From assembly GCF_023015765.1 (NCBI RefSeq), contig NZ_JALKAL010000002.1, forward strand, positions 283,778 to 347,777: a stretch of 64,000 nucleotides of DNA, read 5' to 3'. The stretch is from Ornithinimicrobium sp. F0845. Lineage in GTDB: Bacteria; Actinomycetota; Actinomycetes; Actinomycetales; Dermatophilaceae. A program made the translations under genes and the position numbers. This document shows, one piece after another, positions 1,770 through 47,068 of this stretch (positions are counted from its first letter, which is position 1; the number at the start of each line of letters is the position of its first letter). The notes under the pieces are model-generated. The model ran no database searches. It had not been told where the DNA came from and worked only from the letters and a program-made list of their open reading frames with translations.

Positions 1770-4700
1770 CAGGTCACCCTCCTGCGTCGTGAGCCGAACG
1801 GGAGCGCGAGGAAGAGCACCAGCACGGCGACCGCCACGGTGATCAGGCGCCAGGTCCCGTCCTGTCGGGGTAGCTCGATCTGGAGCTGGTCCGCCGCGCC
1901 CTGGGACACCTCGTAGCGCAGCGGCCACTCGCCGTCGACGGACTCGAGGAGCTCGCCGCTGGCCCGGACCTGCGCGACGGTGGCCCACCCCGCCTCCTCC
2001 GAGATCACCAGGGCCGCGGTGTCCGCGGGTGGGTCGGTGCTGGCGCGCAGCGTGCTGCGTGGACCGTCGACGGGCACCACCGTCAGGGGCACGCCTGCCT
2101 CGTCGACGAGGCGGACCCGGGCGGGCGGGACCAGTGCGTCGTCAGGGCCGGCGCCCCCGACACGCCACAGCAGCAGGTCGTCGGTGGAGTTCACCCGCGA
2201 CAGCGACGCCGTGGCGTCGAGCGTCGCTACGAGCGGGTCACCCTCCGGCGCCCGGAGACCGACGTAGCCGACGGCGAGATCGAGGAGTGCGTCGTGCTCC
2301 GCGGTGGAGTCACTGGCGTCTCCGGCGTCAGTGAGGTCAGCCACCGCGTCAGCCAGCGCCTCGCGCCCTGGCTCGGCGGTCGCTTCGTCCTCGCCCCTGC
2401 GGTCCCGGTCGCTCTGCGTCACGACCTCGGCGACCTGGTCCCGGACCCACAGGCCCGGCTCGCGCCCGGCGAGTCGGTAGGTGACGGTGTCGTCCTCGAC
2501 GGTGAGGTCCAGGATGCGCAGGGCCTCGGGGCCCTGCGCCTGCGCCGTGACCACGGCCGGGTAGGCCCGGGAGGCCTGGCTGATCTGCGGGCCCACGCCG
2601 GACCAGACGCTCCAGGCCAGGGTGCCCAGGCCCGCCACGGCGACCACCCCGGTGAGCACGGCGACCAGGGGCCGGTGCCAGGGCGCCCGCCCCCGGGCGG
2701 GCGGGAGCTCGATCGTCTGCGCGGCGGCCAGGAGCAGGCAGGCCGCGGCGACGCTCACGAAGAGCCCGGGCCAGGGGGTGACCACCGCACCGGCCTCACT
2801 GTGTCCGGTGGGCACGACGCCGACGTGCAGGAGCGGCGCCGCGAGCGCAGCCGCGAGGCCGAGCAGGGCGCCCACGAGCAGCGCGGAGGCGCGCCGCCCC
2901 CGGTGCCCCCTGGGCACAGCCGCCCCCACCGCGAGAACGAGCAGCGGCAGGGTCCACCAGAGCGTCGGGGACAGCCCTCCGCCGGGATGCAGCAACAGGG
3001 TCTGCCAGGACTCGACCTGCGCGGGACCCGCGGCCGCGGCCCCCGCTCCGCCGAGCAGCACCCGGGGGTCCTCGACGACCGTCCGCAGCAAGGGACCGAG
3101 CAGCACCCAGGGCAGGACCACCAGGAGCAGCCCGCGCAGCCGGCCCCATCCCGGTGCACAGAGCAGCACGAGCACACCGGCGATGCTGCCCAGGATCAGG
3201 AGGGCAGGCGTGAACAGCCCGACGAGCACGAGCAGCAGCACCGTCGCGAAGGTCGCCGAGGTGCGCTGGGCACCCTGCCTGCGCGACCCGGCCACGACCA
3301 CCCCTGCCACGAGGAGCGGCATGGCCACGTGTGCGACCACCGGCCCCAGCCGGCCCTCGTCGACCGCCGCCGACAGGGGCGCCAGACCCGCCCAGATCAG
3401 GCCGGCGACAGCGCGCACCCAGCGGGACCGCACTCCCACGCGCGTCGCGACGTAGCCGGTCAGCACCGACAACGGGATCGCCGCGAAGAGGATCCAGGTG
3501 AGCGTGACGGCCGCGGGCGAGCGGGACGCATCGACCCACGGCAACTGCTCCACGACCCAGGTGAACCCGGTCATCGGGAGCAGCCACGGGGCCGGGTCGT
3601 CGCCGCTGCCCAGGCCGCCCCCGGTCCACGGATCCGCCCACGAGTGCCACAGGTCGGACCATCCGGCCAGCACGGGATACACCGCGCCACCACGCACGCC
3701 GTAGCCGCTGCCGGACAGACTCGGCAGCAGCTCCCGCCAGCGCACCAGTGCGGCCACGATCGCCACGAGCAGGGTGATCACCAGGGGCCAGCTCCACAGC
3801 GACCGGATCCGGCTGGGCGCTGACTCCAGGGACTCGGCATCCTCCGAGACCGGTCCGGTCTCCAGTGCCGCGGCCCCACCTCCGGCGCCGGGCTCGGCGA
3901 GCGTGCCGGGCACGGTGTCGGTGGTGCCGTGCCAGGTGCTGGCCGTCGCGGCGAAGAGACCGGACAGGTCACGACGGCGCACCCGGGTCCGGCCGCGGAA
4001 CCGCCAGCGGGCGCCCAGCCCGCGCCAGGGCGCCAGGACCGCCGTCAGGTCGGCGAACTCCGCCGCGGCCTGACCCGGTCGTTTCACCAGCAGCAGGCCG
4101 AGACCGGCCAGCACCGAGGTCAGCAGTATGCCGATCGCGCGCCAGGGCGCCGACCACAGGGACCCGCGGGCGAGGGCCAGCTGGCGGACCCTGCGGCGGG
4201 TGGTCAGCGAAGGGGCCGGGTGGCCGACCCCTCCCTGGCGCACCACGGCGTCGGTCGCGACGACGACCCGGTGACCCGCCAGATGACTGCGCCAGCTGAG
4301 GTCGAGCCCCTCGGCGCCGTGGTCGAAGGCACGCTCCACGCCCCCGATCTCGGCCAGGACGTCGCTGCGCACGAGCATTCCCGGGAGCGGGACCCCGATC
4401 ACATCGAGCCGCTCGTCGTGCTGGCCCTGGTCCAGCTCCCGCGCCACCCCGGCGTCGGCCACCCGCCCACCGCGGGTGAGCTGGTGCCCGACCGAGATCA
4501 GGCGCCGTGGGTCGTCGACGCGGACCAGCTTCGGGCCGACGACACCGACCCCGCTCGAGCGCTGGGTGGCCTCGATCAGCTCGGCGAGCGCGTCGGGCTC
4601 GGGCACGGAGTCGTCGTGAAGGACCCAGATCCAGTGCCGGGGCCGCGGGGGCAGGTCGGCTCGTGCGTCCTCGACCACACGCCATACCGGCGGCTCGCCA

Positions 4701-4963
4701 TCCGGGTCCGGCAGGCGTTCGCGGACCACCAGATCAACCCCCCGGTCGGCGATCAGGGTGTGCGCGCGGGCGTCACGGACCTCCGCGTCCTGGGCGTCGA
4801 GACCGGTCACCACGATGCGGTCGGGCAGTCGCTCCTGCTGGAGGAGGGCGTCGAGTGACTGCAGGACGACCGGGCCGCCGGGGTGCGTCAGGAGGAGGAC
4901 CGTCAGGTCCTCCACCGGAACGCGCGGTCGATCGCGCACCCGGCTCGCGGGTGTGGCGGGCAC
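1769..4963 (-). CDS. large membrane-bound family 2 glycosyltransferase
   Basis: A 1064-residue protein. Residues ~18-240 form a GT-A glycosyltransferase family 2 domain (LTVLLLTHPGG at the nucleotide-sugar fold start; WVLHDDSVPE carries the acidic sugar-nucleotide/metal motif). From ~270 on there are about a dozen hydrophobic helices, with an extracytoplasmic stretch near the C-terminus and a last helix (LITVAVAVLVLFLALPFG) followed by basic residues. It probably transfers a sugar to an envelope lipid or polymer; substrate unknown. It starts 15 nt after whiB2 stops and ends in an ATGA overlap with the DUF5719 gene, a three-gene leftward unit. The whiB2-GT2-DUF5719 order next to fbiA is familiar from other actinobacteria. 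Confidence 0.88.
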   Translation of the reverse strand: MPATPASRVRDRPRVPVEDLTVLLLTHPGGPVVLQSLDALLQQERLPDRIVVTGLDAQDAEVRDARAHTLIADRGVDLVVRERLPDPDGEPPVWRVVEDARADLPPRPRHWIWVLHDDSVPEPDALAELIEATQRSSGVGVVGPKLVRVDDPRRLISVGHQLTRGGRVADAGVARELDQGQHDERLDVIGVPLPGMLVRSDVLAEIGGVERAFDHGAEGLDLSWRSHLAGHRVVVATDAVVRQGGVGHPAPSLTTRRRVRQLALARGSLWSAPWRAIGILLTSVLAGLGLLLVKRPGQAAAEFADLTAVLAPWRGLGARWRFRGRTRVRRRDLSGLFAATASTWHGTTDTVPGTLAEPGAGGGAAALETGPVSEDAESLESAPSRIRSLWSWPLVITLLVAIVAALVRWRELLPSLSGSGYGVRGGAVYPVLAGWSDLWHSWADPWTGGGLGSGDDPAPWLLPMTGFTWVVEQLPWVDASRSPAAVTLTWILFAAIPLSVLTGYVATRVGVRSRWVRAVAGLIWAGLAPLSAAVDEGRLGPVVAHVAMPLLVAGVVVAGSRRQGAQRTSATFATVLLLVLVGLFTPALLILGSIAGVLVLLCAPGWGRLRGLLLVVLPWVLLGPLLRTVVEDPRVLLGGAGAAAAGPAQVESWQTLLLHPGGGLSPTLWWTLPLLVLAVGAAVPRGHRGRRASALLVGALLGLAAALAAPLLHVGVVPTGHSEAGAVVTPWPGLFVSVAAACLLLAAAQTIELPPARGRAPWHRPLVAVLTGVVAVAGLGTLAWSVWSGVGPQISQASRAYPAVVTAQAQGPEALRILDLTVEDDTVTYRLAGREPGLWVRDQVAEVVTQSDRDRRGEDEATAEPGREALADAVADLTDAGDASDSTAEHDALLDLAVGYVGLRAPEGDPLVATLDATASLSRVNSTDDLLLWRVGGAGPDDALVPPARVRLVDEAGVPLTVVPVDGPRSTLRASTDPPADTAALVISEEAGWATVAQVRASGELLESVDGEWPLRYEVSQGAADQLQIELPRQDGTWRLITVAVAVLVLFLALPFGSRRRRVT

Positions 4964-4978
4964 GATGAGGGCGGCCGC

Positions 4979-5251
4979 CTAGACGGCGCGCTTCTTCAAC
5001 TTGCGCCGCTCCCGCTCGGACAGGCCGCCCCAGATGCCGAAGCGCTCGTCGTGTGCCAGGGCATACTCCAGGCACTCGGCGCGCACCTCGCACCCGACGC
5101 AGACCTTCTTGGCCTCGCGGGTCGAGCCACCCTTCTCCGGAAAAAAGGCCTCGGGGTCAGTCTGTGCGCACAACGCACGCTCCTGCCACGAGGCCTCCTC
5201 CGAGTCCGTGTCGGTGCTCGTCAGAAATGTCATGATCTCCAGCTCGTGCAC
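4979..5251 (-). CDS. whiB2: WhiB family transcriptional regulator (WhiB2/WhmD type)
   Basis: Iron-sulfur transcription factor of the Wbl family; WhiB2/WhmD members act in septation and cell division. The sequence shows the Fe-S cysteines (ALCAQTDPEAFF, then CVGCEVRAEC), the GIWGG turn and the basic tail RERRKLKK that contacts DNA. I chose GTG at 5251 because GGAGG lies 4 nt before it; this gives 90 residues. An internal ATG at 5233 is possible but its spacing from GGAG is very short. A strong sigma-70 promoter lies ~40 nt upstream. It is first in a unit with the large glycosyltransferase and DUF5719 gene and divergent from fbiA. Confidence 0.95.
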   Translation of the reverse strand: MHELEIMTFLTSTDTDSEEASWQERALCAQTDPEAFFPEKGGSTREAKKVCVGCEVRAECLEYALAHDERFGIWGGLSERERRKLKKRAV

Positions 5252-42438: not shown

Positions 42439-43179
42439 ATGAGAGTTGTCACCTGGGGTGCTCCGCCGCACGAGGCCCGCGCCGTCCGCCGCCCCGACGG
42501 TCAGTGGTCCCTGCGGCTGCCGGAGGATCCTGCGACATGGGCCAGCCTGGTCGCCACGCTGCCCGACGGTGTCGCCCCGGCGCTGCTCTCCCTCGACGAG
42601 GGGCCTGCTGGTGCACTCCTGTCGGGACTGGGCTTCGAGGCGCACCGCACCGAGCAGTTGTGGGAGGTCCCGGTCGGTGGTCTGCGCAGCACTATCCGGA
42701 GCGCCCACCACGACCTGGTGCCGGTCACGGAGTGCGACCTGGCCAGGGTCACGGCGCTGGACAACGCCATCCGAGCCCAGATCCCCGGCACGGGGGCGTG
42801 GTGGGGCACGGTGACCGAGCTGCGGGACTCCCTGGACGACGACGAGTTCGACCCCGAGCTCTACCTCGTCGCAGTGGACGGCGGCACCGGTTCCTACGAC
42901 GGGTTGATCCGGGTGTGGAACCGCCGGCCTCTGCCGAGGCTCGGCTGCGTCGGCGTGCGACCGGAGTGGCGCCGGACCCGACTCGGACCAGCGCTGCTGG
43001 GAGCCGCGGCGACGACGCTGGCTCAGCGTGGCGTGACCCACGTGGTGACCGAGACCGACGTGACCAATCGTGACTCGCATCCGCTCGCTGCCCGCCACGG
43101 GGCGGTGCCGCGCGGCCGGACGGTGGAGTGGGTCCTCCGCGCTCATCCGGGCCAGGCGGGAGCCGACAGCCTGGACTGA
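42439..43179 (+). CDS. GNAT family N-acetyltransferase
   Basis: 246 residues. The acetyl-CoA motif A is in CVGVRPEWRRTRLGPALLGAA (degenerate R/Q-x-x-G-x-G/A with R-T-R-L-G-P). The N-terminal ~100 residues look like a second, decayed GNAT half. Substrate unknown. It converges on thrS and their 3' ends overlap by 37 bp, so the last 12 codons also encode the thrS C-terminus in antisense. Confidence 0.82.
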   Translation: MRVVTWGAPPHEARAVRRPDGQWSLRLPEDPATWASLVATLPDGVAPALLSLDEGPAGALLSGLGFEAHRTEQLWEVPVGGLRSTIRSAHHDLVPVTECDLARVTALDNAIRAQIPGTGAWWGTVTELRDSLDDDEFDPELYLVAVDGGTGSYDGLIRVWNRRPLPRLGCVGVRPEWRRTRLGPALLGAAATTLAQRGVTHVVTETDVTNRDSHPLAARHGAVPRGRTVEWVLRAHPGQAGADSLD

Positions 43180-44375
43180 TGCGCCTCGCGCAACAGGCTC
43201 ACCAGCGCCTCGACGCCGACCCGGCGCTGGACCCGGTGGCCGACGTCGTTGACCTGGACCGCCCCGCGGGCCTGCTCCTCCGGGCCGATCACGGCGAACA
43301 GGGCGTCCCGCCTGATGCGGGAGGCACGGATCCGCCCACCCAGGGTCCCCTCGTGGTCGACCCGCACGCGCAGGCCGGCAACCCTCGCCCGATCCGCCAG
43401 GTCGCGGGCGGCCCCGTCCTGGCCCGGGCCGAGCGGCAGGACGGCGAGCTGGACCGGGGCCAGCCAGAACGGCAGCCGTCCCTGGTGGTGCTCCAGCAGC
43501 GCGGCGACGACCCGCTCCATCGACCCGACGGTGCCACGGTGGATCATCACGACACGCACCTGGCTCCCGTCGCTGGTGGCATAGGTCAGGTCGAAGCGCT
43601 CGGGCAGGGTGAAGTCGAGCTGGACGGTGGCGATGGTCTCCTCGTGGCCTCGCCCGTCACGGACCTGCAGGTCGAGCTTGGGGCCGTAGAACGCGGCCTC
43701 GCCAACGCCGATCTCCAGCGCGAGGCCCTCGCTCAACACCTCCTCGGCCGCACCACGCAGCGCCCGCTCCGCGGCGGCCCACTGCTCGGCCCCGCCCAGC
43801 CAGCCCGGACCGTCGTCCCGCACGGAGAGCCGCACGTAGTCGATGTCGAGCCCCAGGGTGCGCTGGGCACGGATGGCCGACCGCAGGGCCCGGGACACCT
43901 CCTCGGCCACCTGGTCCGGACGACAGAAGACGTGGGTGTCGTCAAGGTTGATCTGCCGCACCCTGCTCAGCCCGGACAGCACACCGGAGCGCTCGGCCCG
44001 GAACATCGGCGCCAGCTCGTTGAGCCGGAGCGGGAGCTCGCGGTAGGACCGCTGGGTGCTGGCATAGATGAGCGCATGGTGCGGACAGTTCGCCGGCCGC
44101 AGCACGAGCCCGTCCTCCCCCACGTCCATCACGGGGAACATGTCGTCGGCGAACTTCGCCAGGTGCCCGGAGCGCTCGAACAGCTCCGGTTTGGCCAGCA
44201 CCGGGCTGTGCACGTCGACGCACCCGTCCGCGTGCGCGATGTCCTTGGCCAGGCGGTGCAGCTCGTCGCGGATCGCGGCACCGTTCGGGAGCCAGAGCGG
44301 CAGCCCGGACCCGATCATCGGATCGGTGGCGAAGATCTGCAGGTCTGCGTTGAGGTCACGGTGATCGAGGTTCAC
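43143..44375 (-). CDS. thrS: truncated threonyl-tRNA synthetase (catalytic and anticodon domains only)
   Basis: 410 residues versus ~650 for full ThrRS: the N-terminal TGS and editing domains are absent. The class II catalytic core is intact: zinc ligands Cys (RPANCPHH), His (DDTHVFC) and His (MIHRGTVGS), motif 2 (RAERSGVLSGLSRVRQINLDD) and motif 3 (GSMERVVAALLEHH), then an anticodon-binding domain (LAVLPLGPGQDGAARDLA). Without editing it should misacylate serine unless helped in trans. The GTG at 44375 (GAAGGAG upstream) is set by the preceding attenuator, which excludes the longer frame. Probably an auxiliary ThrRS induced by threonine limitation, analogous to B. subtilis thrZ in logic. Confidence 0.87.
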   Translation of the reverse strand: MNLDHRDLNADLQIFATDPMIGSGLPLWLPNGAAIRDELHRLAKDIAHADGCVDVHSPVLAKPELFERSGHLAKFADDMFPVMDVGEDGLVLRPANCPHHALIYASTQRSYRELPLRLNELAPMFRAERSGVLSGLSRVRQINLDDTHVFCRPDQVAEEVSRALRSAIRAQRTLGLDIDYVRLSVRDDGPGWLGGAEQWAAAERALRGAAEEVLSEGLALEIGVGEAAFYGPKLDLQVRDGRGHEETIATVQLDFTLPERFDLTYATSDGSQVRVVMIHRGTVGSMERVVAALLEHHQGRLPFWLAPVQLAVLPLGPGQDGAARDLADRARVAGLRVRVDHEGTLGGRIRASRIRRDALFAVIGPEEQARGAVQVNDVGHRVQRRVGVEALVSLLREAHQSRLSAPAWPG

Positions 44376-44415
44376 GGTCAGCTCCTTCGGGGAGGGGAGC
44401 CGCTTCGGGAGACAT

Positions 44416-44442
44416 AAAAGCCCCGGAGCGTGCTCCGGGGCT
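44416..44442 (-). terminator. intrinsic attenuator-terminator upstream of thrS
   Basis: Read leftward, AGCCCCGGAGC (44442-44432) pairs perfectly with 44429-44419, followed by four U residues (44419-44416). It lies between a Thr-rich leader peptide and thrS, 40 nt before the thrS start, so it must be conditional. Among the few hairpins here with a U-run. Confidence 0.8.
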
Positions 44443-44461
44443 TGTGTAACGGTGACAGCGG

Positions 44462-44521
44462 TCAGGCCATCGCGGCGCCGGAGGGATCCGGCGTCGTGGT
44501 GACCTGGGGCATCTGATGCAC
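44462..44521 (-). CDS. thrS leader peptide (19 residues, three consecutive Thr codons)
   Basis: GTG at 44521 opens a 19-codon frame ending TGA at 44462: MHQMPQVTTTPDP then SGAAMA. Codons 8-10 are ACC ACG ACG (44500-44492), immediately before a hairpin CGCCGGA-TCCC-TCCGGCG (44493-44476). Its 3' arm (CTCCGG, 44483-44478) can instead pair with CCGGAG (44438-44433) of the terminator's 5' arm. A ribosome stalled for Thr-tRNA would block the first hairpin and favour antitermination. A TACCGT box (44533-44528) 6 nt before the GTG predicts a leaderless leader peptide. Confidence 0.75.
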   Translation of the reverse strand: MHQMPQVTTTPDPSGAAMA

Positions 44522-44580
44522 AGTTCGACGGTAGCACCGCGAGCCAGCCGCCCACCAGGCAAAGTTGCCCGGGCGGCGAC

Positions 44581-44658
44581 GATCACGACGTCCCGCGCCT
44601 CGGGCAGCGACGATGACGACGTCCCGCGCCTCGGGCAGCGATCACGACGTCCCGCGCC
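44581..44658. repeat. tandem copies of the GNAT gene 3' end
   Basis: GATCACGACGTCCCGCGCC recurs at 44581, 44612 (one change) and 44640, with units of 31 and 28 bp. The third copy contains the last codons and stop (44642-44644) of the leftward GNAT gene; the other two lie downstream, between the gene end and the thrS promoter. Looks like local duplication by slippage. Confidence 0.75.
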
Positions 44659-45587: not shown

Positions 45588-46187
45588 ATGAGCACCACGA
45601 GGATCCCGCCGGCAGAGGTCACGGGCATGTTCGGACGTTTTGTCAAGATCATGACCCAGCGGATGTTCGGCACGACGCCGGAATCCATCGGCGTGATGTG
45701 GCACCACAAGCAGGTCTTCAAGGACGGGATGGGCTTCGGCCGCAAGGTCGAGGCCTGGGACAAGCTGGACCCCAACCTGGCGACCTACGCCTCGATGGCA
45801 GCCTCAGCCGCGGTCGGCTGCAGCTTCTGCCTCGACCTGGGCTACTACATGTCCCACCACAAGGGGCTGGACGAGGTCAAGGCGCGCGAGGTGCCGCAGT
45901 GGCGTGAGTCCACCGTGTTCACCCCGCTCGAGCGGCGGGTCATGGAGTATGCCGAGGCCATGTGCACGGCCCCGGTCACCGTCACCGACGAGCTGGCCGC
46001 GGCGCTCCTGGACGACCTCGGGCCGGCGGGACTGGTCGAGCTGACCGCTCGGGCCGGGTTCGCGAACTACAGCGCCCGCAGCAACATCGCCCTGGGGATC
46101 CGCTCGGAGGAGTTCGCCGAGGCCTGCGGCCTGCCCCCGCTGTCCGGACGCCCCGCCGAGGCGACCCCGGTACCGTCCAGCGCATGA
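45588..46187 (+). CDS. carboxymuconolactone decarboxylase/AhpD-fold protein, ECF41 partner
   Basis: 199 residues with an AhpD-like all-helical fold. The redox pair and proton-relay motif are visible in AAVGCSFCLDLGYYMSHH (CxxC). Likely a peroxidase- or disulfide-type enzyme rather than a true decarboxylase. ATG 45588 follows AGGAGG. Its stop overlaps the sigJ ATG. COE-type genes (carboxymuconolactone decarboxylases, oxidoreductases, epimerases) are the regular neighbours and targets of ECF41 sigma factors. Confidence 0.9.
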   Translation: MSTTRIPPAEVTGMFGRFVKIMTQRMFGTTPESIGVMWHHKQVFKDGMGFGRKVEAWDKLDPNLATYASMAASAAVGCSFCLDLGYYMSHHKGLDEVKAREVPQWRESTVFTPLERRVMEYAEAMCTAPVTVTDELAAALLDDLGPAGLVELTARAGFANYSARSNIALGIRSEEFAEACGLPPLSGRPAEATPVPSSA

Positions 46188-47068
46188 GCGCTGACACCAG
46201 CGTCGACCCGTTCGCCGACCACCGCAACCTGCTCTTCACCGTCGCCTATGAGCTGCTCGGCTCTGCCGCCGACGCCGAGGACGTCGTGCAGGACGCCTGG
46301 CTGAAGTGGGACGCGGTCGACCAGGAGGAGGTCCACAACCCGCGCGCCTACCTGGTGCGGATCGTCACCCGGACGGCGCTGGACCACCTCCGGTCAGTCA
46401 GCCGCAGACGCGAGGAGTATGTCGGGCCGTGGCTGCCCGAGCCGCTGGTCACCACCCGCGACGTCGCGGAGGATGTCGAGCTCGCCGAGAGCGTCTCGAT
46501 GGCCATGCTCCTCGTGCTCGAGACGCTCTCTCCGACCGAACGGGCGGTCTTCGTGCTGCGTGAGGTGTTCGGCCTGGAGTATGACGAGCTCGCCGTCGCA
46601 GTGGACAAGAGCCAGGACGCGGTGCGCCAGATCGCGCACAGGGCACGCTCGCACGTCACCTCGCGCCGACCCCGCGCCGACGTCTCCCGCGCCGAGGCGG
46701 AGGACGCCGTCGTGGCCTTCCGCCGCGCGCTGGAGACCGGGGACCTGCAGGCTCTGGCCGACACCCTCGCTCCCGACGTCGTCGCGCTCGCCGACGGCGG
46801 CGGCATCAAGCAGGCCCTGCCGCAACCGGTCCAGGGAGCGGACAAGGTGGCCAAGCTCTACCTTGCCGGGCTGACCCGGTTCGGCGACCGGCTCACCTTC
46901 GAGACGTTGGAGCTCAACGGGTGGCCGGCGCTCCTCGCCCGGCTCGACGGCGAGGTCGACAGCGTGCTGGCCTTCGCCGTGCTGGACGGCCGGATCACCG
47001 GGCTCTACGGGGTCCGCAACCCCGAGAAGCTGTCCAGGCTCACCGGGGAGACTTCGCTCAGCCGGTGA
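46184..47068 (+). CDS. sigJ: ECF41 family sigma factor (SigJ type)
   Basis: 294 residues. Sigma2 (LLFTVAYELLGSAADAEDVVQDAWLKW) and sigma4 (LSPTERAVFVLREVFGLEYDELA, then DKSQDAVRQIAHRAR) are followed by a ~120-residue SnoaL-like C-terminal domain, the ECF41 hallmark that replaces an anti-sigma factor. The DGGGK-type regulatory motif appears as ADGGGIKQALPQP. ATG 46184 overlaps the upstream stop. Autoregulated from the promoter at 45523. Confidence 0.93.
   Translation: MSADTSVDPFADHRNLLFTVAYELLGSAADAEDVVQDAWLKWDAVDQEEVHNPRAYLVRIVTRTALDHLRSVSRRREEYVGPWLPEPLVTTRDVAEDVELAESVSMAMLLVLETLSPTERAVFVLREVFGLEYDELAVAVDKSQDAVRQIAHRARSHVTSRRPRADVSRAEAEDAVVAFRRALETGDLQALADTLAPDVVALADGGGIKQALPQPVQGADKVAKLYLAGLTRFGDRLTFETLELNGWPALLARLDGEVDSVLAFAVLDGRITGLYGVRNPEKLSRLTGETSLSR

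Follow-up and report, generated by a model that had tools for sequence, protein, structure and literature searches.

Which mechanism controls the gene of a short, auxiliary threonyl-tRNA synthetase (ThrRS) in Ornithinimicrobium sp. F0845, and what does the DNA between the leader terminator and the start codon of this gene contribute? The locus lies in a 64-kb stretch of DNA, hereafter the window, with all leader and thrS parts on the minus strand, from 44533 to 43143. We consider it very probable that it is a ribosome-mediated threonine attenuator of the auxiliary ThrRS gene, to which are added a segment, D, with two covarying partners and a proposed translational layer. As judged from sequence, thrS is most likely switched on when threonyl-tRNA runs short. 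The parts of the locus are the following:

44528 to 44533, minus strand: TACCGT, putative -10 box of a leaderless promoter, 6 nt upstream of the leader GTG
44462 to 44521, minus strand: leader open reading frame of 19 codons, VHQMPQVTTTPDPSGAAMA, with its GTG at 44521 and its TGA stop at 44464-44462
44492 to 44500, minus strand: control codons ACC ACG ACG (Thr-Thr-Thr)
44476 to 44493, minus strand: protector hairpin (segments 1:2), CGCCGGA-TCCC-TCCGGCG, obtained by folding and conserved in alignment A1
44478 to 44483, minus strand: antiterminator arm A, CTCCGG, directly complementary to its partner CCGGAG at 44438-44433
44418 to 44443, minus strand: terminator hairpin (segments 3:4), a perfect 11-bp stem with loop CACG and TTTT across the stem end
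44396 to 44404, minus strand: segment D, AGCGGCTCC, whose partner, from pairing in the window and covariation, is either the upper 5′ arm and loop of the terminator or the Shine-Dalgarno sequence
44381 to 44386, minus strand: Shine-Dalgarno sequence of thrS, AGGAGC, paired with the D region in folds
43143 to 44375, minus strand: auxiliary ThrRS gene, GTG start at 44375, 410 codons

The leader peptide starts with V-H-Q-M-P-Q-V-T-T-T-P. The original prediction for this DNA described a 19-codon leader with ACC ACG ACG placed exactly before a hairpin, an 11-bp terminator with a U-run 40 nt before thrS, a 6-bp alternative pairing and a TANNNT box 6 nt before the leader GTG, and each of these elements was found. 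The third and last Thr codon enters the protector hairpin, whose 5′ arm begins within it, and the terminator stands 42 nt from the thrS GTG. The leader RNA (44533-44410) folds at -56.3 kcal/mol, compared with -38.9 ± 3.6 kcal/mol in shuffled sequences (z -4.8, 0/200), and a scan of 2 kb gave this terminator as its sole terminator-like site, where shuffles lead one to expect 0.3. A consensus scan detected no two-hexamer promoter of the sigma-70 type in the region; thus, the -10 box alone represents the leader promoter. A 31-bp unit, CGGGCAGCGACGATCACGACGTCCCGCGCCT, occurs three times at window positions 44570-44658, around the end of the upstream gene and shortly upstream of the leader promoter. 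On the plus strand, the window holds at 45589-47068 an AhpD-like gene followed by a sigma-factor-like gene, both named by eye from their translations.

The enzyme is also truncated, as had been predicted. Its 410 codons contain only the class II core and the anticodon-binding domain in Pfam searches, with no N-terminal domains. The alignment to the ThrRS model TIGR00418 starts only at model position 172 and scores 391 bits, barely over the cut-off of 383.65, and the protein aligns with the core of solved ThrRS, the match to chain 1nyq (645 residues) starting at residue 241. It is an extra copy as well: the window's genome contains, at another place, a second ThrRS match in an open frame of 771 codons, whose length suggests the full-length enzyme. 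The short ThrRS would be a regulated spare enzyme lacking the editing domain and might confer tolerance to ThrRS inhibitors. In the nearest relative, a third ThrRS-like match (G024:C409:15-1022) is present at a contig end, beside a short and a longer ThrRS.

A protein search identified close short ThrRS sequences in 24 of the 186 genomes of the family, counting that of the window, and in 16 of 396 genomes at the order level, where the window's own and G044 overlap with the family set. Thirteen further loci were those with actinobacteria named in the title, out of 80 loci, and may share species with the class genomes. With L086, a longer ThrRS from another genome, excluded from the leader counts, a Thr-Thr-Thr leader precedes 49 of the 51 short-ThrRS loci. 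In 48 of them the three residues are followed by Pro in a short frame (Leu in L113), and the 49th, L106, was recovered, as L173, with the RNA model described below. The leader of L087 reads Thr-Ala-Thr. At L014 (Streptomyces sp. ms191) a Thr leader was not found within 110 nt upstream of thrS, although both the hairpin and a matching segment D are retained. In 44 of 49 sequences TANNNT lies 6-8 nt ahead of a leader start, in a count that allowed spacings of 3-12 and every in-frame start, and the five exceptions all belong to one family, f15. In alignment A1 the placement of the Thr codons relative to the protector hairpin is constant. The peptide after Thr-Thr-Thr-Pro varies (D-P-S-G, D-P-L-R-R, E-S-V-P-A-R) while the RNA retains CCGG twice, which points to a constraint at the RNA level.

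A leader RNA model built from 49 sequences gave 24 matches at ≤8.4e-11 among 184 family genomes, which are exactly the 24 short-thrS genomes; the next best match was at 3.5e-6. Since 23 of these 24 matches came from the training alignment, the informative part of this result is the absence of the leader from the other 160 family genomes. Among 394 class genomes, 64 matches were obtained at ≤2.4e-7, the window included. The 63 others come from six families and all encode Thr-Thr-Thr-Pro; thrS follows in 62, and the remaining one, L122, is at the end of a contig. None of the weaker matches inspected has thrS downstream (0/7 in the class; 0/6 in the family, where 6 of 23 were fetched). Overall, the occurrence of box, Thr leader and hairpin ahead of thrS extends from the family to four more groups at the order level and six families at the class level. 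The model has a single match at E 0.001 in the window's genome, so the longer thrS there is without this leader at that threshold. In G768, G887 and G867 (loci L206, L210 and L213), a longer thrS frame with N-terminal regions, as judged by length and by eye, stands behind the Thr leader and is the sole ThrRS match at E 1e-20; therefore, the leader is not bound to the truncated gene.

The original prediction proposed that orthologues be compared for conserved Thr codons and covarying alternative pairings. The Thr codons are conserved, as described above. Covariation of the antiterminator has support across clades, where the observed pairing was reached in 6 of 5000 free permutations; within clades it is marginal (211 of 5000), and the class set gives no support (3591 of 5000). 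The antiterminator sequence scarcely varies. In alignment A1, where the terminator 3′ arm is misaligned, protector and terminator are nearly invariant, and RNAalifold returned 9 pairs with no compensatory change.

Segment D, downstream of the terminator, was absent from the original prediction. In the window, GGAGC(A)CGCT (44436-44427, with one bulged A) in the upper 5′ arm and loop of the terminator can pair with D. The pairing is preserved despite changed letters in three favourable examples: GGGGTGAGC with GCTCACCCC in L120, GGGGCAGGTG with CGCCTGCCCC in L121, and GGGCGAACG with CGTTCGCCC in L211. When each 5′ arm was paired with its own D, the summed duplex energy was -958.7 kcal/mol, compared with -838.9 ± 14.4 kcal/mol for Ds swapped within clades (0/5000), an exchange within families that leaves some shared descent. 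With the whole spacer in place of D, the values were -955.4 and -853.9 ± 14.2 kcal/mol (0/5000 within-clade permutations). The own D was better than the mean of foreign Ds in 43 of 49 sequences (the exceptions are L037, L075, L098, L102, L108 and L110); the corresponding figures were just 33/48 for the whole spacer and 31/48 for the Shine-Dalgarno pairing. In the class set, D with the hairpin 5′ arm gave 1/5000, in a test where the hairpin finder wrongly identified the D helix as the terminator at L193, L206, L207 and L211.

The same helix was followed in an alignment of 60 sequences. Out of a pool of 69, these are the members of the Streptomyces-like and class families whose loop has 4 nt, whose stem is at least 7 long and whose start lies 30-60 nt past the hairpin. 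Base pairs were possible in 92.7% of the cells, and 24 cells had changed on both sides, compared with 6.0 in shuffles (0/500), although cells of an alignment are not independent events. The 48 rows first chosen, picked by eye from the 60, had given 15 double-sided cells against 4.3 (0/500). Columns 9 and 11 of alignment A3, which belong to the loop, keep their pairing with D through 7 and 11 double changes, respectively.

The second partner of the D region is the Shine-Dalgarno sequence. The D-containing spacer with the Shine-Dalgarno region gave 3/5000 permutations and, in the class set, 0/5000; the permutation tests with the whole spacer and with the Shine-Dalgarno region used 48 of the 49 sequences, a Shine-Dalgarno sequence not being found in L087. 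The helix tested in the alignment, taken from the fold of one of the 60 sequences (L029), had 29 double-sided cells compared with 15.6 in shuffles (0/500); it was weaker on the first 48 rows (16 cells against 10.2, 25/500). Local folds, made for the thrS loci only, paired the Shine-Dalgarno sequence in 47 of 48 cases, with a mean z of -1.56 that is inflated by L023 (z -10.7).

Eight control pairings, which joined the leader, the linker or the far upstream region to the spacer, the 5′ arm to the Shine-Dalgarno region, or arm A to the spacer, showed no excess, with 1784 to 4998 of 5000 permutations reaching the observed value. Two of them deviated the other way, by 2.7 sd (far upstream) and 3.5 sd (linker, class set), and hence the z-scale of the permutation tests is inexact. 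A pairing of the 5′ end of the leader with the linker that follows the protector, plausible by eye, was rejected at 596/5000. At the level of sequence comparison, covariation is shown to support both pairings of the D region, i.e., with the upper 5′ arm and loop of the terminator and with the Shine-Dalgarno sequence.

How the two pairings may act was analyzed by constrained equilibrium folding of 104 of 112 sequences (without L087, L009, L023, L193, L206, L207, L211 and L212). To model the antiterminator state, the leader was masked in imitation of a stalled ribosome and the terminator 3′ arm was displaced; arm A then takes the terminator 5′ arm. Exposure of the Shine-Dalgarno sequence was 0.27 in the terminator state and 0.27 in the antiterminator state (n=104), or 0.27 and 0.26 when the 3′ arm was free to pair elsewhere. 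The first version of the second layer, in which stalling frees the Shine-Dalgarno sequence at equilibrium, was not supported by this equal exposure. Only when the spacer was engaged elsewhere did exposure rise, to 0.55, with a gain above 0.1 in 83/104. For RNA ending before the Shine-Dalgarno sequence, D holds the 5′ arm by at least 4 pairs in 42/104 sequences, the window included, and shares that arm with A in 19/104, the window not among them; with arm A also covered, D holds the 5′ arm by at least 5 pairs in 104/104. This partial pairing in the shorter RNA makes a capture of D during transcription possible in the folding model.

The strongest competitor, to which we give real though clearly minority weight, is that in most relatives the attenuator is mainly translational, with a hairpin that does not terminate and competes with D for the 5′ arm; the leader ribosome would then decide whether the Shine-Dalgarno sequence opens. 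A T-run of at least 4 at the hairpin end is found in 13 of the 104 sequences, the window among them, and 91 are without it; the pairing of the Shine-Dalgarno sequence in local folds is also in favour of this explanation. Nevertheless, terminators with a poor U-run may still function in actinobacteria, the window itself has a U-run, and folding predicts no opening on stalling. The authors of the S. lividans TK24 reannotation also report one hairpin without U-rich sequence (PMC8079986), which agrees with the translational explanation.

Rather unlikely, in our judgement, is a purely transcriptional attenuator in which D is a decayed repeat of the terminator 3′ arm and the Shine-Dalgarno fold is incidental. 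The complete terminator of the window with its TTTT and the lack of a Shine-Dalgarno switch between states in equilibrium folding speak for such an attenuator, but D covaries with loop nucleotides that the 3′ arm leaves unpaired (columns 9 and 11), and the D region covaries with the Shine-Dalgarno region as well, in two largely separate sets of sequences. It is highly improbable that the hairpin serves to terminate the upstream gene, with the Thr codons there by chance and a thrS promoter further down: the upstream frame (acetyltransferase-like by eye) does end at 44642, 198 nt ahead of the hairpin, and the consensus scan gave no two-hexamer promoter anywhere in the region, but box, Thr leader and hairpin recur before thrS across family, order and class. 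The chance of a tRNA-sensing T-box or another catalogued riboswitch is negligible, for although T-box control is common for ThrRS genes of Firmicutes, no Rfam family (Rfam 15) reaches its gathering score in the window, and a search of six loci at E 1 gave no T-box match and a single hit, to an unrelated family whose gathering score it missed by far.

For the ribosome-mediated attenuator, we propose the following course of events. A leaderless transcript would start at the leader GTG, as the box and the relative in S. lividans suggest. With ample threonyl-tRNA, the ribosome would clear the three Thr codons, the protector hairpin would form, followed by the terminator, and transcription would stop. 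With scarce threonyl-tRNA, the ribosome would stall on the Thr codons, where its footprint would cover the protector 5′ arm; arm A would then pair with the terminator 5′ arm and thrS would be transcribed, a step for which the anatomy and its conservation argue. In the translational layer, D would close the Shine-Dalgarno sequence unless captured by the terminator 5′ arm, both the function and the state being proposed here. With 91 of 104 sequences lacking a T-run of four, this layer is attractive, as it would help to explain regulation.

More tentatively, the terminator 5′ arm and loop might serve both the transcription and the translation decision, a scheme that we regard as possible but clearly short of probable. 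The antiterminator arm would take the lower half of the terminator 5′ arm, RNA polymerase would pass, and the bared upper half and loop would capture D before the Shine-Dalgarno sequence is made. Read-through RNAs made under threonine shortage would then be open for translation, while leaky read-through RNAs would be closed by D.

Since a leaderless thrL-thrS leader has been reported in S. lividans, the attenuator core is already known in kind; it is here much extended, and the D pairing is what is added. In the S. lividans TK24 reannotation, based on RNA-seq, a leaderless thrL (MKRVRPFLETTPGFVPAR) precedes thrS with one hairpin and no U-rich sequence, and the transcription start is reported at the leader start codon (PMC8079986). 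Both systems thus share a leaderless, Thr-containing leader and a hairpin ahead of thrS, and the peptide end PAR of thrL recurs in the Streptomyces and class-level leaders found here. The S. lividans leader has two adjacent Thr codons and termination is described as 'not clear', whereas in the window there are three Thr codons and a U-run; a pairing of the Shine-Dalgarno sequence is not mentioned in the accessible part of that report (PMC8079986). Table 4 of the same paper lists a 'metL' leader called methionine-dependent that contains Thr-Thr-Thr-Pro-Gly-Ala-Arg, resembling the thrS leaders; from its sequence, this leader may sense threonine.

The consulted portion of a 2005 actinobacterial survey (PMC1262725) describes classical attenuators for trp, trpS and leuS, which resemble the thrS leader in placing a leader peptide, an antiterminator and a terminator ahead of a gene for an aminoacyl-tRNA synthetase. 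The LEU element before leuA in Actinobacteria, described in the same portion, also reaches the ribosome-binding site; there the Leu codon run of the leader itself pairs with the leuA Shine-Dalgarno sequence, whereas in the thrS leader it is a segment downstream of the hairpin (PMC1262725). For threonine operons, that portion of the survey gives no conserved RNA structure (PMC1262725), and thrS is not mentioned in the accessible parts of PMC4833913 and PMC13236596. No published precedent for the D pairing was found in the literature searched, in which the pairing has no name to search by directly.

A threonine attenuator known from Streptomyces but not found in the early actinobacterial survey thus precedes thrS in many families of actinobacteria. 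Its added covarying pairing extends to the ribosome-binding site and could explain how leaders mostly without a U-run regulate. Dual control of transcription and translation is a property of the Bacillus trp leader, which likewise combines a terminator decision with a hairpin able to close the Shine-Dalgarno sequence in read-through RNA. In Bacillus a protein decides, whereas in the thrS leader the decision would be taken by the leader ribosome.
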